Shown piece after piece: positions 963 to 58,828 of a stretch of 64,000 bases of DNA. Source of the DNA: Fibrobacter succinogenes (lineage in GTDB: Bacteria > Fibrobacterota > Fibrobacteria > Fibrobacterales > Fibrobacteraceae); the NCBI GenBank assembly GCA_902756345.1, contig CACVQR010000010.1, positions 124,001 through 188,000 of the forward strand, read 5' to 3'. The position numbers and the translations under genes are program-made. Position 1 is the stretch's first letter, and each line of letters begins with the position of its first letter. The notes under the pieces were generated by a model. The model saw only the letters and a list, made by a program, of their open reading frames with translations, did not search any database and was not told the DNA's origin.

Positions 963-1144
963 GTGCACCTCGTTACATAGTGAACATTTGTTTTACTGCA
1001 CAAAAATATAGTATTTTTAGAACAATAGTGTTATAGCCCCTGAAATCTAAGCACAAGAAATAGCTACAATCAGGGCCAAAATCAAAAAGAACATCACTTT
1101 TTTTAGAAATTCAAGTATATTTTAAGCAAATACTCAAGGTGTAT

Positions 1145-2707
1145 ATGGGAGCAAGATTCTTATTGATGACGGGAATCGCCATGGCAGCGGCTCAGGCGTT
1201 CGGCGCCGTTTACTATGTGGCGACCGATGGCAGCGACAACAACGCCGGTACAAAAGCAAAGCCCTTCGCCTCGCTCAACAAGGCAAATACCGTAGTGCAC
1301 GCGGGCGACACCGTATGGATTCGCGGCGGCATCTACGACCTGCACGATACAGTCTTTTACGAACGGTACAAGATGACTGCGGGCATCCTACTGACTGCAA
1401 GTGGTGAAAGCGATGACAAACGCATCCATTACCTGGCCTATCCGGGCGAACGTCCGATTTTTGACGCGACCAACCTCCCTGTGGCCGCAGGCGTGGAGCA
1501 TAGCGACGGCACGCCCGAGGGCGCGATGTACACCTCGCCCATCGTGATTTCGGCAAAGTACCTGCACCTGAAGGGTTTCGAGGTGCGCAACACGCCCATG
1601 AAACACAACTCGAATTCCGGCGTTTTCCTTTACGCGAGCAAGCACATTTTTTTGGAGCAGATTGATAGCCACCATAATGCGGGCCCCGGATTCTTCGCGA
1701 ACGACGGCGCGGCAGACGGCGGCGGACACATATTCCTGAACTGCGATGCCCACGACAACTACGACCCCTTGGGCTGGCAGGGCGACGGCGAAAATGCCGA
1801 CGGCTTCGGCGCGCATTACCAAAAGCCGGGCGAGGGCGATACGACCAAGTTCATCGGGTGCCGCGCCTGGTGGAACAGCGACGACGGCTTCGACTTCATC
1901 AACCAGGAATTCCCCGTGGTGCTGGAAAACTGCTACGCCATGGGGAACGGCTACAGCGACTACGGACTTGGCAATCCGAAGAACGGCAACGGGCACGGCA
2001 TCAAGATGGGCGAAAGCACCCTCGGCGGCGGGCGGCATATCATAAAGTTCTGCGCCGCCTGGAAAAACAAGGCGACGGGCTTTTACGCGAACTACACCGG
2101 CGTGGGCAGCAAGTGGCTCAACAACACGTCTTACATGAACAAGGACCGCGAATTTGCCATGGCATCTACACTCTTTGATTCGCAGGGGAACCGCATTGCC
2201 GAGGTGGCTCCGCTCACCGGCGACAATGCACATGTACTCAAGAACAACATTGCCTTCCCGAACAAGAATTCGCAAATCGGGGAGTGCTGGGAGTATATAC
2301 CGAGCCAGAACATCGATCATTACGTGGAATGCCCCGCCGGCGAGAACAACACCTGGAACCTGAATCTCGACCTGACGGTCGACGATTTTGAAAGTCTCGA
2401 CGACCCGAGCATGACCGTGACAGGCGAAGACCTTTCGAAGATTCCTGGAATGCTTGGCCCGCGTAATGCCGACGGCAGCTTGCCCGATGTGGATTTCTTG
2501 AAACTCAAGACCGGAAGCCGCGCCCTAGAATTAGGTTTGGGAGCGTTCAATTATAGCGGTTCTGCGACTCCGATCATCAAGAAATTCCGGAATTCAACGA
2601 AACCGCTTACAGCGCCAAGCGATCCTGCAAAAATGTTCGATTTGCAAGGCCGTTACTTGGGGCCTTTCAAGCCGGGCAAAGCGTCCCGTTATTTCATAAC
2701 AAAGTAA
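1145..2707 (+). CDS. Secreted right-handed beta-helix protein, PL9-like pectate lyase
   Basis: Probable exported polysaccharide lyase of 520 aa acting on pectin. The ATG at 1145 is preferred over an in-frame GTG at 1139 because AAGG lies five bases before the ATG. Residues 1-20 form a signal peptide ending AQAFGA. The mature protein opens with YYVATDGSDNNAGT and GDTVWIRGGIY, the usual start of PL9-type beta-helices. WNSDDGFDF and NGNGHGIKMGE fit the Asp/Lys-rich active-site face of PL9 (Lys as base, Asp for calcium in the family). The C-terminus carries a short MFDLQGRYLGPF tail of a kind I associate with Fibrobacter secreted enzymes. No separate carbohydrate-binding module is seen. Monocistronic. 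A different beta-helix lyase or hydrolase family is the main alternative. Confidence 0.75.
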   Translation: MGARFLLMTGIAMAAAQAFGAVYYVATDGSDNNAGTKAKPFASLNKANTVVHAGDTVWIRGGIYDLHDTVFYERYKMTAGILLTASGESDDKRIHYLAYPGERPIFDATNLPVAAGVEHSDGTPEGAMYTSPIVISAKYLHLKGFEVRNTPMKHNSNSGVFLYASKHIFLEQIDSHHNAGPGFFANDGAADGGGHIFLNCDAHDNYDPLGWQGDGENADGFGAHYQKPGEGDTTKFIGCRAWWNSDDGFDFINQEFPVVLENCYAMGNGYSDYGLGNPKNGNGHGIKMGESTLGGGRHIIKFCAAWKNKATGFYANYTGVGSKWLNNTSYMNKDREFAMASTLFDSQGNRIAEVAPLTGDNAHVLKNNIAFPNKNSQIGECWEYIPSQNIDHYVECPAGENNTWNLNLDLTVDDFESLDDPSMTVTGEDLSKIPGMLGPRNADGSLPDVDFLKLKTGSRALELGLGAFNYSGSATPIIKKFRNSTKPLTAPSDPAKMFDLQGRYLGPFKPGKASRYFITK

Positions 2708-2858
2708 CAAAAATCACTTTCCGATTGCGTTTTCACGCCTTTGTAAGTAAACCGAAACAAAAAGAAGCCTCTAACTCGTTGACAGACAACGATTTAGACT
2801 CGCCACTCCGCAGAAATCCAAGACCAAATTCTGCGTATTTTCTATACTTGGAATCAAG

Positions 2859-5800
2859 TTGATCAGGAGACCGACGACATTTCTAGGAACAGCCGCCTTC
2901 GCCACGGCTGTTGTTGGCGCCATTGCCCTTGGCGTCTGGTTCCTGCATGCGCTTGCGGAACGGTTCCTGTCGACTCCGCACACCATCGCGGGCGTTACGA
3001 TTAGCCCTCACGGGCACCGTATGGACGACCTGCTGACCCACCATTTCGATTCAATCCGCGTTTCGATGGACGGCACCGATATCAAGGTGGCCAATCCGAA
3101 TTTGGAAATCACCCTGCTGGGCGAACCCAAGGGCATTCGACTCGCCATGGATTCGGTAATTGCAGACATCGATGTTTCCAAGGATAAAGACGAGAAGAAG
3201 CCGAAGAAAACCGACAGCATTCCCAAATTCCCGGAAAAACTGAAAATTCACATTCCGGCGCAAATCGATGTCAAGGAGGCGCGCGTTAACCTTTCGGACG
3301 GCAAGAGCTGGCAGGCAAGCAATATTTCCGTGGAAAGCCGCGGACAAAAAGCGCTCACGCTCAGCGCACGAAACATCAGCGGCGACTACATTTCGGCACC
3401 AGCAAGCGTTAACCTGAACGCAGACTTCAGCAGCGACGACTTGAAGATTGACGGCAAGATCAAGACGAAGAAAGATTCTATCGCCTTGAATGTCGAAGCC
3501 CCCAAGGACAACCTCGGGAAAATCAAGACAAGCACTGACCTGACCATCACCAATCCCGAAGACTGGATTCCGGTGGAGCTACCGCCGGCAGTGCCCGAAC
3601 TCGGCAAGGTCAAGGTGTCCGCAACCGCAAACGTAGACCTGCAAAAGAACCGCACCTCTTACGACGCAACGATTGAAACGAGAGTCGGAGCCTTCTGGCC
3701 GCTGCTTGCCGAAAACGTGACCGTAAACCTTTCGGGCGACATGGAAAACATCGATGCCGATGTGGTTCTCAGGAACGACGAAGGCGGAACTATCGTACTG
3801 AACGGAAACGTCGATAAAGAAAGGAACGTGTTCTTCACGGGGCGCATCGACCGCATGAATGCGATGTTCGGTCCGCAGATGATGCCGCTCGACATGGAAA
3901 TCAAATCGGGCGAACTGATCGACAACGAGCTGACCGTTTCAATCGAAACCCGACACGGATCACTTGTCGACGCAGAAGTTCATCTCAAGGATTCGCTTTC
4001 ACTCACCTTTACCGGTGACATTTCCCCTTACGAACCGTGGGCATTAGACTGGACGCAAGGCAACCTGACCTTGGGCGACCGAACAAAAGCGTACGGTTCG
4101 TTTGATGGACATTACCTGAAAATACTCGCCAAAGTCAATGCGATTGAAAACGCCTACCACATAACGGCAGACTCTCTGCAGGTGACGCTCGCCATCAACA
4201 AGAAGGGAATCGACTTTACGAACGGTGTCATTTACACTCCGAACGAAACTTTCGATTTCGACGGCGATGTCAAGTGGAACGACGAACACCCGCATACCTC
4301 CTGGAACGTAAGGCAGCAACACGGCGGCAGCGCAAGCGCATACGTTCACATCGGAGATTCGATTGCGCTTGACGTTCAGGCCGACAAGGTGGTTTTCGAG
4401 ACGATTCCGTTCTCTGACATAAAACTCGGACGAAACATTCGAGGAAAGGTGAGCGGCGAATGGCACCACGACTTTGACAACCAATTCGGATTCATGGACG
4501 TGTCCGTAGACGGCGACCTGGACGCATTCAAAGTTGGACTTGAAACATCGATTCGTGCAAACGGCGACACGCTATTCATTGACAACTTCAGGGCAATCCA
4601 TAACCGAAACTCCGTGACCGCAACGACCGTATTCGTGTTGCCTAACGATTCGAACCCGGACTTCAAGCCTACTACCTTCTTGCCTGTAGAAGTGTTGTTC
4701 GCCAACATTTCATCGCACGACTTCAGTATTCCGCTACTGCTTGAAAGCTTTAACGACAGCACACTCACTTCGGGCATGCTGAATGGTGATCTCACCTACA
4801 ACCAAGGTAACAAGCTCATTGGAAACTTAAGCTTTGCAGACATCAAGTTCCGAAAGATTCCGCCCGACCTGTTCAACATTCGAAAACTGAACGTGTTTGC
4901 CGAAAACGACAAGGTCGAACTGAACGCTTACCTGGACATTGGCGGCGGCGGCTGGACAGGCAATACGCAGGTGATTATCAACAACGTGTTTAGCGACAAG
5001 CGTCACGTCAGTTTCTCGCACGGTAGCGACAACGGCGGCACGGTTTGGGCAGAAGGCTTTATCGACAACGACCTGTTGTTCAAAGGCACTGTAGACGCAA
5101 ATGGTTCCTGGTTCATTCCGGGAACGGTCAGCGAAATCAAGAATACCGACTTGCATGTGGACATTGCAGCCAACTTGCGGAAGGGCCTTGCCGGAATTAC
5201 CGCGGACATGAGTCTGGATTCGACCGTTTACGAACCACCCAGAACCAAAGTGCAGTTCCCGATTTACATGCGCGGCCATGTGGAAAACGGGCTCTTGAAC
5301 ATTTACGAAGCGAGAACCAAGAACGAAAACGACGAAGTCATTTCGGGAACACTGCAGTTCAACCTCGACAGCATGAAGATCGATTCTATCAATGTGCATT
5401 CCGACCGTTACTCGATCAAGACCGAATCGCATTACCTTGTACTTGAAGACATCAATTCTACCATGACCGACAGCGAAGAAGAACTGCTGGTGACGGCAAA
5501 CATTCCGAAGATTTCTTACAAGTTCAACAACATAATTTACGGCGACGCCGAAGCCATTGCCCGTGGAAACATCGGCTTTGCAATTCCGCACCGCCAAGAA
5601 GGCATTATCAAGAACAGCACCATTACCGGAAATATCATGATTGACAAGATGGTGTTCTACCGCGATTTCGATATTGACATTACGCCGGCAGCTCTCGACA
5701 AGTACCTGACCATGTTCAACAACTTTGTCGCCAAGATGCGCAAGAGCGGCGCCCAAGAAGAAAAAATATCAGTTTCGAGCCCCATCAACCTTTCAATGCA

Positions 5801-16427: not shown

Positions 16428-16550
16428 AATTCTGAATTCAGAGTTCAGAATTCAGAGTTATTATAAATCTAACGCCAACTAATATAATTGCGGCGTAGCC
16501 GCCTAGCTAAACAATCCGAAATCCGAAATCCGAATTCCGAATTCCGATTT
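16428..16550. repeat. Heptad repeat array around a GCGGC hairpin (AATTCAG / CCGAATT words)
   Basis: From the base after the stop codon: AATTCTG, AATTCAG, AGTTCAG, AATTCAG (16428-16455). Then comes a spacer, the hairpin GCGGC-gta-GCCGC (16490-16502), and the opposite-facing units CCGAAAT, CCGAAAT, CCGAATT, CCGAATT, CCGATTT (16516-16550). This lies in the convergent gap between the thioredoxin-like gene and PBP1A, ending three bases before the PBP1A stop. Confidence 0.87.
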
Positions 16551-44608: not shown

Positions 44609-46168
44609 ATGGATTGTAAGAAGCATAACCTAGCTGCATTTATGCTAGAAACTATGCGACAAAGCAATCCTTTTTTCTTTTTCCCTATTTTTATTTTCTG
44701 CGCATCGTTTGCATTTGCAGACGACGATTTTGATTTGCCCGATGACGTGCAAAAAGCTGAGGTGCCAGCCAGCGCCGAAGAAGTTCCTGAAGGACCTATA
44801 AACTTCGCGCCCATTGAAGAGACTACGACAAGCGAGCCTGCGCCCGCCAGCAACCGACCCGAAAATGTCAATTCCAGAAAGATCGCTCCTGCAACCTCTG
44901 CAAAGAGCGACACTTCTTATAAAGAAAAGAAAAAACTCACACCTCTGAATAACAGGTCAGCAAAGGCTATTGTCGATAGCTATTTACCCGTAGCAGATGA
45001 GCCCGTTACCGATGTGCCCGTTACCGATGTGCCTGCCACATTCAAAGAGCATTTGATTCCCGAAGAATTGGACCGTCCGCTTCGCGTAGGGATTTATACC
45101 GGAGTCAAGGAACTCTACCTGAAATACCAAGGCGAAACCGTACGCGTCACACCGCACGGCAACATGGTGCGTTTTGAAGCCGACGGCAATTCTACCGAAG
45201 ACATCGCCCACGAATTCAACAGCGAAGATGGCGGATGCCTCGCCGTCGCCGCCGACAAGAAAAGTCTCGGCAAGGCATGCTACCCAGGCAGCATCATGTT
45301 CCGCAATACAAACGGCAAACTCGACGCAATCAATTCGGTCGATGTCGAGGACTACTTGCGTGGAGTGATTCCTTACGAAATCGGCAAGCTGGACAGCAGC
45401 CGCATCGAAGCGTTAAAAGCACAGGCCGTGGCCGCACGCACTTACGCGTACAAGCATTTTAACAGCCGCGAATCCGTAGGCTTTGACGTATACGCCGACA
45501 CCAAGGACCAGGTCTACAAGGGCCTGGAATCGGCAACACCGTTGACCGACGCCGCCGTCAAGGCGACCGCAGGTGTCGTGATGACTTACGGTGGCGAATT
45601 CATTATCGCCTACTACCATTCTACATGCGGTGGCGTTACCGAAACTCTTGCCACCTGGAATCGCGCAGACCTTCCGTACCTAAAATCGGTCCCGGACAAG
45701 CGCCCGAATGGCAAGCCCTGGTGCGATGAATCGAGCTACATCAAATGGGAGCGCCGCTTTGCCGACAAGGAAATCGCCAAGTTGTTCAAGGCGAACACCA
45801 ACGAAGCAAAGGCTGTATTCGGCAGCACAAACGGAAAAGACTTCAAGAAAGTCAAATCCATCAAGATTAAAGACAAGTTAAAAAGCGGCCGAATCATGAC
45901 GCTCCGAGTCGAAACCGACAAGGGATATTTTGACGTTCTGACGGACCGCACTCGCTGGCTATTCAAGAAAGCCGGCACCATTCTGCCGTCTTCTTTCTTT
46001 ACCGTAAAGAAAGAAGGCAAGGAATGGGTTGTTACAGGCACCGGATTTGGGCACGGCGTGGGCATGTGCCAAATGGGAGTGCGGGCTCGTGCCCAGGCCG
46101 GGCAAAGCTACCAAGAAATCTTAAGCCATTACTACCAGGGAATCACTCTGGAAAAATTCGATCGGTAA
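44609..46168 (+). CDS. SpoIID/LytB-domain protein, exported
   Basis: 519 aa from ATG 44609, which has AAGGG at five bases; ATG 44591 is the other choice. Hydrophobic FFFFPIFIFCASFAFA around residues 26-42 is a signal sequence with a long n-region. A Ser/Pro/Glu-rich spacer includes a PVTDVPVTDVP repeat. The SpoIID domain has VEDYLRGVIPYEIGKL with the catalytic Glu, RIEALKAQAVAARTYAY, HSTCGGVTET, and C-terminal GFGHGVGMCQMGVRARA. SpoIID-type enzymes are lytic transglycosylases acting on denuded glycan, so periplasmic wall remodelling is likely; it may cooperate with amidases such as the one at 25 kb. Four bases separate it from the next gene. Confidence 0.9.
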   Translation: MDCKKHNLAAFMLETMRQSNPFFFFPIFIFCASFAFADDDFDLPDDVQKAEVPASAEEVPEGPINFAPIEETTTSEPAPASNRPENVNSRKIAPATSAKSDTSYKEKKKLTPLNNRSAKAIVDSYLPVADEPVTDVPVTDVPATFKEHLIPEELDRPLRVGIYTGVKELYLKYQGETVRVTPHGNMVRFEADGNSTEDIAHEFNSEDGGCLAVAADKKSLGKACYPGSIMFRNTNGKLDAINSVDVEDYLRGVIPYEIGKLDSSRIEALKAQAVAARTYAYKHFNSRESVGFDVYADTKDQVYKGLESATPLTDAAVKATAGVVMTYGGEFIIAYYHSTCGGVTETLATWNRADLPYLKSVPDKRPNGKPWCDESSYIKWERRFADKEIAKLFKANTNEAKAVFGSTNGKDFKKVKSIKIKDKLKSGRIMTLRVETDKGYFDVLTDRTRWLFKKAGTILPSSFFTVKKEGKEWVVTGTGFGHGVGMCQMGVRARAQAGQSYQEILSHYYQGITLEKFDR

Positions 46169-46172
46169 AACG

Positions 46173-47432
46173 ATGGAAGGCGTCCCCCAAAAGCCGCTAC
46201 TTGCCGTGATTAGCCAAGGTTGCGCAGCCAACTTTGGCGATGGCGAAAAGATTGCTCGGGTATTCGCAGACGAATACCACGTTGTCTTTGGAATGACCGA
46301 AACCCAAACAAACGAGGCGCAACTACCCCAGGCATTCGTGCTGAACGTTTGTACCGTAAAAGGGAACGCAGGAGCGCTCAAGCTACTGCGCGAAACCTTA
46401 AGTACTGCTCCCGAAGCCAAGATTTTCATTACAGGGTGCGCACCAAAGGATTTCCGCGAAGCTGCCGCAAAGATAACAGATAAAGTCGTTTACACGAGCC
46501 TCAGGGAGCTCGGGCTGAGCAAGCAACCCCTGAACACGTTGCGAGAATCTCCTTTAGTGGGCATCGTCAACATCGAGGAAGGTTGTCTCGATGCGTGCGC
46601 CTATTGCTCAACAAGGCTTGTCAAGGGCCGCTTACGCAGCTACCCTGCTGCAGACATTCTCCAGCAAGTAAAGCGTCTTGTAAACGACGGCTGTATCGAA
46701 ATCCAGTTGACCGGACAAGATTGCGGCTGCTACGGATTCGATACCGGCACCAACCTCGCCGAACTTGTGCAACAGATTCTGGCCGAAGTCCCGGGCAATT
46801 ACAAAATGCGCCTTGGCATGGGAAACCCGCGCCACATGATGCAATACCTGGACAAGCTCATTGAATGCTTTAAAGACGACCGCGTCTATAAATTCATTCA
46901 CTTGCCCGTGCAAAGCGGTAGCGAAAACATTCTTAGAGCAATGAACCGCATGCATTCCGCCGCCGACTACGTGATGCTTGCCGAAGCGTTCAACCAGATT
47001 CCGCTATTCACGCTCAGCACCGACTTGATTGTCGGATTCCCCGGCGAATCGGAACAGGACTTCAACGACACACTCGACATTCTCGAAAAGACGCGCCCCA
47101 CAGTTTGCAACATCACCCGATTTGTAGCTCGTCCGAACACACCCGCCTACCATATGGCCGGCGCCGTTCCCGACGAAATCAAGCACACGCGCTCGGCAAC
47201 CCTTGCCGAAGCCTTCCAGAAGATTGCGACCGAAAATAACGCCCGCTGGATTGGCCTAACCGAAACCGTGGTCATCGAAAAGCCAGGCTACCGCAAGGGC
47301 ACCTACATCGCCCGCAACGCCGCCTACCGCCCCGTCGCAATCACTAGCGACCGGCCGCTACAACCCGGCGAACGGTTCACCGTCACCATCACGGACGCCG
47401 AACCCTTCGCCCTAATCGGCCGCATCAACTAA
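46173..47432 (+). CDS. Radical SAM tRNA methylthiotransferase, archaeal/eukaryotic CDKAL1-like
   Basis: 419-aa methylthiotransferase. UPF0004 domain with GCAANFGDGEKIA and the second Cys in LNVCTVKGNA (the N-x-CTVK form is that of archaeal and CDKAL1 proteins; bacterial MiaB has NTCS). Third Cys in ITGCAPKD. Radical SAM cluster CxxxCxxC in EGCLDACAYCSTR (near 137-145). LTGQDCGCYGFDTGTNL matches the CDKAL1-type LTSED-GAYG-D block. C-terminal TRAM-like strand region. The expected product is ms2t6A37 on ANN-decoding tRNAs. Translated directly after the SpoIID-like gene (4 bp). MtaB, the bacterial enzyme for the same reaction, is the alternative. Confidence 0.82.
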   Translation: MEGVPQKPLLAVISQGCAANFGDGEKIARVFADEYHVVFGMTETQTNEAQLPQAFVLNVCTVKGNAGALKLLRETLSTAPEAKIFITGCAPKDFREAAAKITDKVVYTSLRELGLSKQPLNTLRESPLVGIVNIEEGCLDACAYCSTRLVKGRLRSYPAADILQQVKRLVNDGCIEIQLTGQDCGCYGFDTGTNLAELVQQILAEVPGNYKMRLGMGNPRHMMQYLDKLIECFKDDRVYKFIHLPVQSGSENILRAMNRMHSAADYVMLAEAFNQIPLFTLSTDLIVGFPGESEQDFNDTLDILEKTRPTVCNITRFVARPNTPAYHMAGAVPDEIKHTRSATLAEAFQKIATENNARWIGLTETVVIEKPGYRKGTYIARNAAYRPVAITSDRPLQPGERFTVTITDAEPFALIGRIN

Positions 47433-50519: not shown

Positions 50520-51143
50520 ATGACGTTTTCGACCCTATTTACTATCGTAATGGCCCTCATCTTTGCGCGCATTTTTTGGCTAAAAATCAAGGATGTGAGC
50601 ATGAAAAGCGAATCCTTTAAGCAGCTTCCGGCCAAAGACCAGCTTTCTGTCTTGAAAGAATGCCTTTTGAACAATCCGACCGAAACAAACCTGAAAAATC
50701 TGAAAGAGTTTTCCCAGAAACAAGGTGTCGAATTGGACATCGAATCTTATAGGCCGTTCATCAAAAAGCAGCAGGAACTAACCCGCCGAAAGGACGCCCT
50801 TGCCGAAGACAACGAACTCTTTACCGCTGAGGCCGAATGGATCGACCAGATTTCGCCCATGGAATTTGAAGAGGCCAAACTCGCCAAGCAAGAAAACCGG
50901 TTTGAGGACTATATTCTGCATTCGCTCGAAGGCGTTGCAAGGCTTTACTCGGATCGGGCCATTTTAAGCGAACTGGACTCCCTAGTTCAAGACTACCCTA
51001 AAGCCAAGGTACTCGCCCAAGGGTACCGCGACCTCATGGAATTGCGTGACCAAAGCGGAGCAGACGACGAATCGCTCAAAAAATTGCGTGCCGCCAAGGA
51101 ATCTTGGGAAAAAGAACTCTTGCAAGTGGATATTGAACAGTGA
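50520..51143 (+). CDS. Membrane-anchored helical protein of unknown function
   Basis: 207 aa, not recognised. An N-terminal TM helix (TFSTLFTIVMALIFARIFWL) is followed by a charged, mostly helical cytoplasmic part (KDQLSVLKECLLNNPTETNL, KQQELTRRKDALAED, EEAKLAKQENRFEDYILHSL), with TPR-like character in places. No Shine-Dalgarno; a TAAATAAT box 13 bases before the ATG hints at a leaderless message. Its TGA overlaps the GTG of topB, so the two are translationally coupled, but a functional link is only inferred. Confidence 0.75.
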   Translation: MTFSTLFTIVMALIFARIFWLKIKDVSMKSESFKQLPAKDQLSVLKECLLNNPTETNLKNLKEFSQKQGVELDIESYRPFIKKQQELTRRKDALAEDNELFTAEAEWIDQISPMEFEEAKLAKQENRFEDYILHSLEGVARLYSDRAILSELDSLVQDYPKAKVLAQGYRDLMELRDQSGADDESLKKLRAAKESWEKELLQVDIEQ

Positions 51144-53956
51144 TCCTACTTGTCGCCGAAAAACCGTCTGTCGCAAACCAACACTACCGCCCTATGCTGG
51201 AGCGGTTGGAAGGGGAAAAATTCACCCAAGGCGACGGATGCCTGATTGGCAAGAACCATTGCATCACCTGGTGCGTAGGTCACCTGATTACCCTTGCGCC
51301 GTTAGACGCTTACCCCGGTTTTGAAGGCGGCTGGCGACTTTCGAATTTGCCCCTGCTCCCAGAAAAATTCAAGCTCATGGAAATCGAGAGCACCAAGAAA
51401 CAGCTGAATGTGGTGCGGCAGATGATGGAGCAAGCAGACGTGCTGGTGAACGGCGCGGATGCCGGCCGCGAAGGTAACTTGATTTTTGACTTGGTGCTCG
51501 ACTACACGCCCTCTTTTAAGCAAAAGACCATCAAGCGCCTATGGGTGAACAGCTACGTGGCCAAGGACTTGGACAAGGCCTGGAAGAACCTAGAAGACGC
51601 TACCCAGCGCGTGAATTTAAGCTATGCAGCCCGCTTAAGACAGCGAGCCGACTGGATGGTGGGACTGAACGCGACACGCGCCTACACGCTCACAGCAGGG
51701 CGCGGCAAGATGATTTCGGTGGGGCGCGTGCAGACTCCGACCCTAAACCTGATTGTAGAACGCGACACCATCGTAGAACAATTCAAGGAACTGTTCTACT
51801 ACAGCGTCGTGGGCACATGGAAAGGGTTCCAGGCACAATATGTCAAACGCGAAGAAGACACCAAAGGCGAAGCAAATCTTAAAGTCGCGGTTTTTGAAAA
51901 AGAAACGGAAGCGAATGCGGTTGTAGCGCGATGCGTCCCTCCTGCCGAAGCTGCTATAGCAAAAATCGATAACCAGCAAAAGAAGCAATTTCCGCAGAAG
52001 CCTTTTGACCTGACCGAACTCCAGAAAGAGGGCAACAAGCGTTTTAAATACAGCGCCCAGCAAGTTTTGGATTGCGCGCAGAACCTGTACGAAAAGAAAC
52101 TGCTCACCTACCCACGTACCGATTCGCAGTACCTGCCCGACACCATGAAGCAAGAGGCATTCGCCCTCGCACAGAAATTGGCAACACCCGAGCAGCAAAA
52201 GGTTTTCCGTTCTTTCGATGAAAATTTCGTCTTCATCAATTCGAGCAAGGTGACCGACCACTTTGCCATTATCCCCACCGGCGAAGCTCCGAACGATTTG
52301 CCCGAAATGGAGCAGAAGATTTACGACCTGGCCAAGGAACGCTTTGTGCAGGCGTGGCTGAAGCCGTACGTGTGGGATGAAATGGAGGTGACATTGCAAA
52401 GCAATGTCATCCTGAGCGAAGCATCAGCGAAGTCGAAGGATCCAGATTTATTCCGATTAAAGCTCAAGCGCAACGAAGATTTGGGATTCCGCGCACTTGT
52501 GAAGGAAGAAAAGAAAAAGACTAGCAAGAAGAAAGGAGATTCCCGCTCGGAGGCGGGAATGACAAGTGCAGGTGACGAGGGCAAGGGCGACAGCGATGAA
52601 ATCACGAACCTGGTAGAAGTTTTCCCGGAATGGGCTGTTGGCGAACACGCGCCTTTTGACAGCGTAGAATTGCAAAAGAAAAAGAAGAGCAAGCCCAAGT
52701 ACTATACCGAGGCGACTCTTTTGGCCGCAATGAAAACCGCCGGCAAGCAGATCGAAAACGAGGAACTTGCCGAAGCCATGAAGGACCGCGGCCTAGGTAC
52801 GCCGGCAACGCAAGCAGGCATTATCGAGACTCTCAAGAAGCGCGGCTTTATCGAAGCGCAAAAGAATTATCTGGTGAGTACAGAGCGCGGACGCGAAGTG
52901 ATCGCCTTGATGGATGAAAAAGTCAAGTCACCCGAAATGACCGGCGAATGGGAATACAAACTTTCGCAGGTCGAAAAGGGCGAGCTTCAACCGGCTGAAT
53001 TCCGCGACGGAATCGTTGAATACGTGAAGCAGCTGTTCGCCGATTTACATGCGCGATACGGCTGCCAGTTCGAGCGCGAAACCGCAACCGAAAGCATTCC
53101 ATGCCCCAAGTGCGGGAGCGCGCTCGAAGTAGCCCCCTGGGGCTACGTGTGCCCCAAGACCGAATGTGGATTCCGATTCGGGCACACTGTGGCAGGCAAA
53201 ATGCTTTCTCATTCTGAAACGAAGACCTTGCTTGCCGAAGGCCATGTAGGCCCGCTTTCTGGTTTCAAGAGCAAGAAAGGCACCGAATTCTCGGCAAAAC
53301 TTTCGGTTGACAAAGATTTCAACATCCAGTTTGAATTCGAAAGCGACGGCAAGTTCCACGGGCAAAAAACAGAATACAAGTGCCCGCTCTGCGGCGAGCC
53401 CCTCGAAGAAAACAAGAACGCCCTATTCTGCACCAATGCTACCGATGGCGTCGACTGCAAATTCACGCTATTCAAGACCGTCGCAGGCCACACGCTTACC
53501 GTCGCCGAAATAAACGAACTCTTTACCAATGGCGAAACACCGCTGATTCAAGATTTCAAGAGCAAGAAAGGCTCTGATTTTGCCGCTCGCCTCAAATGGG
53601 GCGAAGGCGCCGACAAGGGCCGCGCTGTTTTTGAATTCGCTCGCAGGAACCTCCCCTGCCCCGTTTGCGGAGACCAATTGCGTTTTCGCACCGGGACATC
53701 GAACCAAGGCAATGGCGAAGCGAATCACGCCGCTTACGTGTGCATGAACCCGCAATGTGGTTTTGGAATTCCGCAAGTATTCTATCAGCGCAAACTCACC
53801 GACGACGAAGTCGAAGGATTGCTCAAGAACAAATTCACGCCGGTCCTCGAGCCGTTCAAAAAGAACGATACGACCTTCCGTGCAGCACTTGAAATCCGCG
53901 ACGGCGGCAAGCTCGCCTTCAACAAATTAACCGTCGAAGTCATCAATCAAAAATAA
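51140..53956 (+). CDS. topB: Type IA DNA topoisomerase (topoisomerase III) with zinc-finger tail
   Basis: 938 aa. GTG start at 51140 overlapping the previous stop. Toprim domain: MILLVAEKPSVANQ, ADVLVNGADAGREGNLIFD. Cleavage domain: ISVGRVQTPTL and the active-site tyrosine in LLTYPRTDSQYLP (near 323). RGLGTPATQAGIIETL is canonical. Three C-terminal Cys4 units: CPKCGSALEVAPWGYVC, CPLCGEPLEENKNALFC and CPVCGDQLRFRTG..YVCMNPQC. The stretch around 415-495 is not conserved in type IA enzymes and contains two dispersed DNA repeats translated in frame. Role: decatenation and relaxation of negative supercoils with recombination helicases. Confidence 0.94.
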   Translation: MILLVAEKPSVANQHYRPMLERLEGEKFTQGDGCLIGKNHCITWCVGHLITLAPLDAYPGFEGGWRLSNLPLLPEKFKLMEIESTKKQLNVVRQMMEQADVLVNGADAGREGNLIFDLVLDYTPSFKQKTIKRLWVNSYVAKDLDKAWKNLEDATQRVNLSYAARLRQRADWMVGLNATRAYTLTAGRGKMISVGRVQTPTLNLIVERDTIVEQFKELFYYSVVGTWKGFQAQYVKREEDTKGEANLKVAVFEKETEANAVVARCVPPAEAAIAKIDNQQKKQFPQKPFDLTELQKEGNKRFKYSAQQVLDCAQNLYEKKLLTYPRTDSQYLPDTMKQEAFALAQKLATPEQQKVFRSFDENFVFINSSKVTDHFAIIPTGEAPNDLPEMEQKIYDLAKERFVQAWLKPYVWDEMEVTLQSNVILSEASAKSKDPDLFRLKLKRNEDLGFRALVKEEKKKTSKKKGDSRSEAGMTSAGDEGKGDSDEITNLVEVFPEWAVGEHAPFDSVELQKKKKSKPKYYTEATLLAAMKTAGKQIENEELAEAMKDRGLGTPATQAGIIETLKKRGFIEAQKNYLVSTERGREVIALMDEKVKSPEMTGEWEYKLSQVEKGELQPAEFRDGIVEYVKQLFADLHARYGCQFERETATESIPCPKCGSALEVAPWGYVCPKTECGFRFGHTVAGKMLSHSETKTLLAEGHVGPLSGFKSKKGTEFSAKLSVDKDFNIQFEFESDGKFHGQKTEYKCPLCGEPLEENKNALFCTNATDGVDCKFTLFKTVAGHTLTVAEINELFTNGETPLIQDFKSKKGSDFAARLKWGEGADKGRAVFEFARRNLPCPVCGDQLRFRTGTSNQGNGEANHAAYVCMNPQCGFGIPQVFYQRKLTDDEVEGLLKNKFTPVLEPFKKNDTTFRAALEIRDGGKLAFNKLTVEVINQK
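52391..52443 (+). repeat. In-frame dispersed repeat within topB (VILSEA type)
   Basis: The palindrome ACATTGC-aaa-GCAATGT (52391-52407) runs into GTCATCCTGAGCGAAGC..GCGAAGTCGAAGGATCC (52406-52443). The second part is a well-known intergenic repeat pattern in many bacteria. It encodes NVILSEASAKSKDP in TopB without a stop or frameshift. Confidence 0.8.
52535..52564 (+). repeat. In-frame dispersed repeat within topB (ATTCCCGC type)
   Basis: GGAGATTCCCGC-tcggag-GCGGGAATGACA, a hairpin with 8-bp arms that belongs to the common GATTCCCGC...GCGGGAATGAC repeat pattern. It encodes GDSRSEAGMTS. It lies 91 bp after the first in-frame repeat. Confidence 0.8.
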
Positions 53957-54181: not shown

Positions 54182-54229
54182 GGCCTTTCTTTTTTCATTG
54201 ACCATCCGGTCAATGAAAAAAGAAAGGCC
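54182..54229. repeat. Perfect 22-bp-arm palindrome
   Basis: Arms 54182-54203 and 54208-54229 with loop ATCC; arm ends are GGCCTTTC and CATTGACC. It starts two bases after unit C of the element cluster. Its right arm overlaps the left arm of the terminator at 54223-54248, so the two hairpins are mutually exclusive in RNA. Confidence 0.85.
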
Positions 54230-57736: not shown

Positions 57737-58828
57737 TTGGTCGAAGGAACTCCCGACGGCAAGTTTCTCCGAGAGCGTTTCCAAAAGTTCTTCTGCGACA
57801 TTTTCTTTTTTACCCTTAGCAAACGACCAAGAATTGGCCCCCAACCACGGGGGGACGATGTGTTCTGGGAATACAAGATGATTCAGAATAATGTTGGGCA
57901 ATGCGAAAAATTTTGTCTTGATAAACAAGCGACCTAAACAATAAGTCAACAAGTCGGGCTTGGTACAAACCGTAAAGGGAACTCCCGACAAAGCAAGTTC
58001 CAAGGTCGATGTTCCGGGGGCGGTCAATGCATATTCCGCACTTTGATACAGAGCCTTTCGCTCTGCGGCACTTTGGGGAGCGACAACCACAGGAATCTTA
58101 TACTTCTTAAAAACATCCACCAGTTCTTGGCGCGCTGCCACCACCACTACATTTTTAAGCCCCTGCACCGCTTTCAAATAAATAGGCAAGTTGCGGAGCG
58201 CCTGCGCCTTTCGACTCCCGGGCAACAGCAAACAACGTGGATTAGGAACCGCTTCGGTCTCCGCAATTCCATGCGACGCCTTATTTCTCTCTAAATGCAA
58301 CTCCGAATTCCGAATTCCGAGTTCCGAATTTGCAAACGGGTGTTGAACGCGAACCACATTACAGCCGGCTTCGCGGTACACCGATTCCTCAAAATCAAAA
58401 AATACGGCGAGCTTGACATACGGATTTTTCGCAAGCACCTTCGCACGCTTGCGTTTCCAGGCCCACACTTGTGGAGGCGCCACATACAAAGCCGGCTTGC
58501 GGAGTTCCCCCGCCAGAGCCACGAGTTTCATGTTAAAGCCCGGATAATCAACAGCAATCAGCCCGAGACATTCCGGCGATTCAAGCGCCGTCTTTAGTGC
58601 AATAAAACTCTGACGCAATTTAAAGTACTTGGGCAATACATCGCCAAAGCCAGAAACCGGCAAGTTTTCGAAGTCGACCAAGGGCAACATTCCCGCCGCC
58701 TGCATGCGGCGGCCGCCTGAACCTTTCACGGTAAAATTTTTTGAAACTAGACTCTTGACTAAGGGTTCGCCAACGGAATCCCCGGAGTCTTCGCCCGCGC
58801 AAATCAGAATGTACGGCTCGCACGCCAT
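57689..58828 (-). CDS. lpxB: Lipid-A-disaccharide synthase
   Basis: GT19 glycosyltransferase joining UDP-diacylglucosamine and lipid X, inner-membrane surface. 379 aa. ILICAGEDSGDSVGEPLV, MQAAGM, VDYPGFNMKLV, YVAPPQVWAW and LLPGSRKAQ are diagnostic; the APGTSTLELALSGVP loop follows. The stretch between AGCNVVRVQHPF and the LLPGSRK block carries NSELGIRNSEL, encoded by a heptad repeat array inserted in frame at 58299-58333. It starts six bases after the dnaE stop and is probably cotranscribed. It overlaps mutL by 48 bases tail to tail. Shows that the organism makes lipid A. Confidence 0.94.
   Translation of the reverse strand: MACEPYILICAGEDSGDSVGEPLVKSLVSKNFTVKGSGGRRMQAAGMLPLVDFENLPVSGFGDVLPKYFKLRQSFIALKTALESPECLGLIAVDYPGFNMKLVALAGELRKPALYVAPPQVWAWKRKRAKVLAKNPYVKLAVFFDFEESVYREAGCNVVRVQHPFANSELGIRNSELHLERNKASHGIAETEAVPNPRCLLLPGSRKAQALRNLPIYLKAVQGLKNVVVVAARQELVDVFKKYKIPVVVAPQSAAERKALYQSAEYALTAPGTSTLELALSGVPFTVCTKPDLLTYCLGRLFIKTKFFALPNIILNHLVFPEHIVPPWLGANSWSFAKGKKENVAEELLETLSEKLAVGSSFDQLALEFLGQFVERKAQ
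58299..58333. repeat. Heptad array inside lpxB, in frame
   Basis: Plus-strand units AACTCCG, AATTCCG, AATTCCG, AGTTCCG, AATTTGC (35 bp). On the coding strand it adds about 11 residues (NSELGIRNSEL). It uses the same AATTCCG word as the intergenic arrays at 16.5, 26.9, 43.5 and 44.5 kb. Confidence 0.85.

Follow-up and report, generated by a model that had tools for sequence, protein, structure and literature searches.

The topB gene of Fibrobacter succinogenes raises the question of how two different short repeats, of a kind met mostly between genes, came to be read in frame within one topoisomerase, and what occupies the same positions in related species. The gene lies in the window, i.e., the whole stretch of 64,000 nucleotides that was analyzed, at 51140..53956 of the forward strand. 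It starts with GTG and encodes a type IA topoisomerase III of 938 aa, recognized from its ORF and the Pfam domains Topoisom_bac, Toprim, and Toprim_Crpt. The best PDB match of the protein was the E. coli TopoIII structures (E 1.6e-78), and its nearest named records were those of F. succinogenes or Fibrobacter sp. MAGs. The earlier note on this DNA had placed two translated repeats here; both were found at that place, in a frame that is open from the GTG at 51140 to the stop at 53956. Judged by conserved open frames, the segments would be translated into TopB.

The first repeat, F1 (52405..52443, forward strand), reads TGTCATCCTGAGCGAAGCATCAGCGAAGTCGAAGGATCC in full (TGTCATCCTGAG...GAAGGATCC or TGTCATCCTGAGCGAAG..CGAAGTCGAAGGATCC in short form), and its in-frame peptide is NVILSEASAKSKDP. 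The second, F2 (52538..52564, forward strand), is the hairpin GATTCCCGC..GCGGGAATGACA (in full GATTCCCGCTCGGAGGCGGGAATGACA) with the in-frame peptide GDSRSEAGMT. A third palindrome, absent from the earlier note, touches F1: a perfect 9-bp palindrome TGACATTGCAAAGCAATGTCA (TGACATTGC-AAA-GCAATGTCA; 52389..52409, forward strand), which consists of host codons plus the initial bases of F1. Similar ACATTG..CAATGT pairs were seen ahead of F1 in loci L040, L056, and L034. The topB copy of F2 was a perfect single-strand hairpin (z -3.8 as DNA and -3.5 as RNA; for neither was it equalled by any of 200 shuffles), and its exact pattern occurred once in the window vs. 0.00 times in shuffles. The topB copy of F1, folded alone as DNA, was a poor hairpin (z +0.6).

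Ortholog comparison and a structural model delimited two hypervariable sites around these repeats: site 1 (52385..52450, forward strand; codons EVTLQSNVILSEASAKSKDPDL), a loop joining two beta strands, and site 2 (52508..52594, forward strand), a linker ahead of DEITN. In the AlphaFold2 model (mean pLDDT 80, pTM 0.61), strands E410-421 and E437-447 border site 1, and pLDDT was under 50 for residues 425-432 of site 1 and 455-485 of site 2; as modelled, both sites are low-confidence loops between strands. A variable beta turn, site 3 (51830..51874, forward strand; about residues 231-245), contains DERREAKDERDAAK in genome G010. On the 3′ side of topB, at 54182-54229, there was a hairpin with a 22-bp stem and a loop of 4, the longest in the window, which has the look of a terminator or of another palindromic repeat.

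The two families were widespread in the genus. The F1 15-mer TCATCCTGAGCGAAG occurred in 12 exact copies in the 3.36 Mb genome that holds the window (G000), and F1 was found in 53 of the 61 genus genomes, with reversed controls of 0 in both cases. With free stem positions, F2 was found in 54 of 61 genomes, at up to 71 copies per genome (control 0); copies of this ATTCCCGC type numbered 45-71 in G001, G004, G006, G014, G045, G051, and G053, and the exact F2 18-mer was present in 14 of 61 genomes. Three other families that occupy site 1 of topB were F3 (GACGAGAGACGAGAGACGAG; 40 of 61 genomes), F4 (GTTCGGCAAGCTCACCAACC; 21 of 61), and F6 (TCATTGCGAGC..GCGAAGCAATC; 39 of 61), each with a reversed control of 0. 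The genome-wide counts cover these five families; F5, F7, and F8 were recognized as recurring words in topB orthologs, and words of F7 and F8 occurred in the window outside long ORFs as well. According to a coding scorer, 38 of 40 F2 copies and 33 of 39 F1 copies in G014 and G004 were not in frame in genes (F1 in frame, 3 of 20 and 3 of 19). This scorer was correct about the frame in no more than 78% of its 240-nt training chunks, overlooked the in-frame copies in L003 and L009 and the second copy in L297, and may include false in-frame calls. The earlier note had called both repeat types ordinarily intergenic; in the window genome, F2 was scarce, with two copies by the hairpin pattern and two by a degenerate pattern, the topB copy being one of each.

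The alignment of TopB proteins across Fibrobacter that the earlier note had called for revealed presence, absence, and replacement of segments between species, and the region described there as poorly conserved proved hypervariable at both sites. Topoisomerase matches were obtained in 60 of 61 genomes, many of the relatives being MAGs; these matches include a second, more distant topoisomerase, so that topB of this kind did not come from every genome. Four of 56 sequences were dropped because their flank motif was unmatched, and the two sites were read in the other 52. Site 1 held at least one of eight repeat families in 40 of these 52 orthologs, was short in six, and had other content in six. 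One of the last six (L046) was by eye an F6 variant, and L039, counted as F3, was a weak match in a short loop. By strict patterns, site 2 held F2 in 22, F3 in 11, F5 in one, and none of these in 18 of the 52, several of the 18 being decayed F2.

Some states of site 1 were nested. Between common left and right flanks, L051 had plain TRDERRETRE, L024 had F4 inside it, and L053 had a different palindrome inside the same F3 stretch. In L078, a close relative, the F1 of the window genome carried a further repeat in its loop. The palindrome inside F3 in L053 is related to a GATATA..GGAGCAG type; longer palindromes of that type were observed inside F1 in L008, L292, and L293 and in topB of L025, L050, and L054, with inner stems that differ by copy. 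One MAG, G058, contained two different TopB sequences of this kind (L046 and L048), probably through contamination.

In TopB of other phyla, only a turn with few residues, such as ITRVEKDAFKT, stood at site 1 in the 25 of 43 outgroup loci compared (among L098-L141). Site 2 was variable in these 25 topoisomerases too. The earlier note regarded one peptide segment shared with unrelated type IA topoisomerases as the observation that would overturn its reading; NVILSEASAKSKDP and GDSRSEAGMT were sought in these 25 loci, and neither was found.

Other genes also held repeats in frame, as the earlier note had supposed. Among 46 window ORFs compared with four relatives, each with incomplete ORF coverage, in-frame length variation with repeat words was found in lpxB, a RimO/MiaB-like gene, and a SpoIID-like gene; the MutL linker varied with no obvious repeat. 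In lpxB, which had been named together with topB, the segment NSELGIRNSEL (58298..58330, reverse strand; ortholog comparison and Pfam) is read from a repeat of the AATTCGGAACTCGGAATTCGG type; the core of this repeat recurs in the window at 16530, 26909, and 44546, where no long ORF covers it. At the variable site of the RimO/MiaB-like gene (46506..46574, forward strand), G003 and G030 have in-frame CCTGAAACGAGTTCAGG repeats (KLTLKRVQGD) and G010 a variant. In the variable region of the SpoIID-like gene (44834..45076, forward strand), G030 and G010 have PLKQVQGD / PILKQVQDD repeats. Near the end of this ORF, at 45990-46016, there was also a hairpin with a 12-bp stem, CTTCTTTCTTTACCGTAAAGAAAGAAG.

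In the window genome, five of the 12 F1 copies were in frame inside long ORFs, namely those of a 529-aa protein with no Pfam match, FeoB, DeaD, an Ig-domain protein, and TopB; the coding scorer, which excluded one of the 12 as it had no right arm, put three of 11 in frame. Apart from TopB, the proteins with in-frame repeats included FeoB, DeaD, an Eco57I-type methylase, CoaBC, CobA-HemD, and TilS, as we name them where the name goes beyond the Pfam match. TilS had a CCTGAA..TTCAGG repeat in the window genome and a reverse-orientation F1 at the corresponding region in G014. Of 32 copies of the CCTGAA..TTCAGG family, the 27 distinct ones were examined, and four of these were candidates in frame; a further copy, in the SpoIID-like gene of G030, was not in frame according to the scorer and in frame according to the alignment. 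The CobA-HemD-like protein of L297 (G004 C1:860900-863500, ORF 730-2535) had at least four in-frame repeat-derived segments (two VILSE.., one CHPERS.., and one VIPAKAGIS), at least three beyond the scored one. In L013 (G000 C1 near 70113, ORF 1122-3023 minus), an Eco57I-type methylase had the adjacent repeat peptides VIASEAKQS and VIPAKAGIS.

Short hairpin repeats that are normally intergenic appear to have landed repeatedly, and in frame, in the same two loops on the TopB surface; other enzymes appear to have received them in their loops as well. The explanation that we consider very probable is that non-autonomous palindromic repeats spread through Fibrobacter, that copies which keep the frame within a loop survive, and that the TopB loops were filled and refilled, leaving a different peptide in most species. 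Short REP/RPE-like repeats of roughly 20-50 bp, belonging to several unrelated families, would spread mostly between genes, and copies inside genes would survive only if the frame is kept and the loop tolerates lengthening. TopB would offer two such loops, the beta-strand turn of site 1 and the next linker, site 2, which may for this reason have been filled, refilled, and nested into many times, and probably emptied again too; repeated filling would leave the TopB of most species with a different repeat-derived peptide.

The turnover of these loops was examined on a topB DNA tree from which the sites had been removed. Site-1 states required 34 changes vs. a mean of 37.8 with shuffled labels (minimum 36 in 50 shuffles). 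The content of site 1 changes so fast that the tree accounts for almost none of it. F1 required 13 changes vs. a shuffled mean of 13.3. F2 at site 2 required 14 vs. 16.9 and kept some tree signal, as expected of an older insertion. Support was modest (22 of 49 inner branches starred), and the change counts are therefore inflated; the protein tree gave the same picture. G030, which the DNA tree joins to the window genome as its closest sister (100*), differed at both sites, with F8 at site 1 and only a decayed F2 at site 2. Uncorrected for relatedness, F2 at site 1 tracked the F2 copy number of the same genome (median 56 vs. 3, p 0.0014), as did F3 (7 vs. 1.5, p 0.005); no significant relation was found at site 1 for F1 (p 0.41), F4 (p 0.32), or F6 (p 0.07), or for F3 at site 2 (p 0.20).

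A serious, though in our view less probable, alternative is homologous recombination, by which Fibrobacter lineages would have swapped whole topB segments; the repeats would then have entered few times and long ago, and only alleles would move. F1 at site 1 always had one orientation and frame, though four of the six frames are stop-free in its core, which suggests shared descent or allele recombination for part of the set. F2 is present in topB of the window genome though almost absent elsewhere in it, and the only CCTGAAACRAGTTCAGG copy found in G003 was in the RimO-like gene, as exchange would predict. Evidence against exchange comes from the nested insertions with intact outer flanks (L024, L051, and L053; L078 vs. 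the window), the relation of occupants to genome copy number for F2 and for F3 at site 1, the many families and positions at one site, and the parallel cases in other genes. We infer that the loop changes were insertions and losses and not merely allele swapping; transfer of topB alleles between lineages could account for part of the pattern.

The structure of the repeats bears on whether the hairpin itself is what is kept. At the three variable stem pairs of F2, 111, 117, and 115 of the 117 copies in the loci were paired, and the stems changed on both sides. Of the 20 topB copies, all were paired at 7-18 and 9-16, with two and three pair types. Such pairing despite two-sided changes would suit hairpins that are retained because they act as DNA or RNA, in termination, mRNA stability, or pausing, with the peptide as a by-product. 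We regard this as improbable: F2 pairing was the same over all 117 copies, in topB and elsewhere, and so is a property of the element, not of topB. Moreover, several relatives have lost the F2 hairpin by drift, some have no site-1 insert, and site 1 accepts families with no common structure, the plain direct repeat F3 included.

Selection for useful peptides, for example as TopB tuners, is still less probable. The segments persist in frame in most species, and intragenic REPs are often found in genes for DNA synthesis and repair, according to the passages on such copies in PMC3733652; site 1, however, is unconserved in sequence and length even between sisters and is a low-confidence loop in the model. 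We infer that the repeat-derived peptides are tolerated rather than useful. That ordinary hypervariable linkers drifted and slipped into a chance resemblance is hardly credible and is ruled out as an origin by the repeat counts, for although other phyla, too, have a variable linker of low complexity at site 2, the matches are 15-26 bases long with reversed controls of 0 and the segments are cleanly present or absent in frame.

F1 and F6 had constant, short outer arms and variable inner sequences. The 150 listed F6 copies had 72 distinct inners. Complete folding that left a loop no longer than 4 was seen in 47 of these, where shuffling predicts 5.5; for the 57 distinct inners with a length of 7 or more, paired stems averaged 2.0 vs. 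0.75 with shuffled halves (maximum 1.19 of 2000). GNA occurred in 18 of 36 F6 triloops and GNNA in 5 of 11 tetraloops. The 67 F1 copies in loci had 47 distinct inners; 24 of 39 distinct inners had a perfect stem of at least 3 at all (loops up to 5), and of 23 with such a stem and a loop of 3-4, 17 had GNA or GNNA loops (about 14% expected). Copies were not mutually independent in these statistics. In DNA, GNA and GNNA are exceptionally stable loop types. Intergenic copies were also nested, one element in the loop of another (e.g., L386 and L378).

A RAYT/Y1 transposase, which mobilizes GTAG REPs, was rejected as the mover: PF01797 had no match in G000, and among 17 relatives it was found in six and was absent from the F2-rich G014, G045, and G051, with no match to F2 abundance. 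No target-site duplication was found, and no insertion was caught between any near-identical strains. We consider copying via single-stranded hairpins, by template switching or some transposition of single strands, more probable than the action of a cut-and-paste transposase, and we propose template switching, which can create and maintain self-complementary stems (PMC8794818), as the likeliest way in which inner stems are rewritten. A bolder and rather doubtful extension is that these are transposase-free nested palindromes with constant outer arms, in which almost every copy has its own rewritten inner stem that nonetheless remains self-complementary, in many cases with a C-GNA-G or C-GNNA-G cap; hairpin tips would be the landing sites of further elements, and the same process would rewrite the loops of TopB and other enzymes.

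One of the closest known systems is the superfamily of CGTC-tagged REPs, which includes RPE-4, RPE-6, and Neisseria dRS3, has intragenic in-frame members, and is described without a known dedicated transposase; it has a CGTC/TGTC tag, an 8-9 bp stem that begins with AT, a loop of 4-5, and tails that are mostly, not all, CCA (sections of PMC3733652 on this superfamily). On the complement of 52538-52564, F2 has the tag TGTC-ATTCCCGCC..., a 9-bp stem beginning with AT, and a loop of 4. It is likewise repeated, mostly intergenic (up to 71 copies per genome, with only two in the window genome), and at times intragenic in frame, but CTCC and not CCA follows its stem. F2 fits this superfamily, tail excepted. 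F1, F6, and the CCTGAA..TTCAGG family have TGTC/CGTC ahead of an A; F1 and F6, unlike the REPs described in those sections, have short outer arms and copy-variable inner stems in place of an 8-9 bp stem with a loop of 4-5.

The pattern of Rickettsia palindromic elements (RPEs), to which the earlier note had likened the locus, would be apt as a mechanism, with movement read from differences between species: here too, many protein genes with no relation to each other hold palindromic repeats that keep the frame and would be translated, relatives lack the insert, and homologs occur in related species. However, the RPEs that were described first measure about 150 bp and encode a conserved ORF peptide (PMC10969869), whereas the Fibrobacter elements are about 20-50 bp, belong to several unrelated families, and occur in another phylum, in gut rather than intracellular bacteria, and no fewer than eight families have made use of a single loop. 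A parallel in two species is recB of Xanthomonas campestris and X. oryzae, where nearly the same position holds different REPs (an example within PMC3733652), compared with eight families in 52 TopB orthologs. The enterobacterial RU-1/2/3 are likewise small mobile sequences of intergenic regions that have become in-frame parts of genes, but as units of 103-168 bp, and repeated use of one loop is not described in the sections of PMC2759123 that treat them. In the mitochondria of Nematomorpha, palindromes also lie inside translated genes; there, both arms encode conserved protein regions and not variable inserts (coding palindromes as presented in part of PMC6649704). In the open-access literature that was searched, the repeat words had no match as DNA (at least two of four words) or as peptides, and nothing on Fibrobacter palindromic or intergenic repeats was found by title or abstract; a term search of the main text of the S85 genome paper (PMC3079729) found no discussion of such repeats. 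What is new here is the re-use of one slot by many unrelated families, and constant outer arms with nearly copy-specific self-complementary inner stems.

In-frame mobile palindromes have been known mainly from Rickettsia, and the present case adds a different phylum and a genus of which dozens of species have been sequenced. A loop used by many unrelated families provides natural replicates for testing if the inserts amount to raw material or to tolerated junk, and the inner-stem pattern gives a handle on how REP-like repeats with no known transposase multiply. If true, the nested-palindrome system would mean that Fibrobacter generates diversity in protein loops by natural means.
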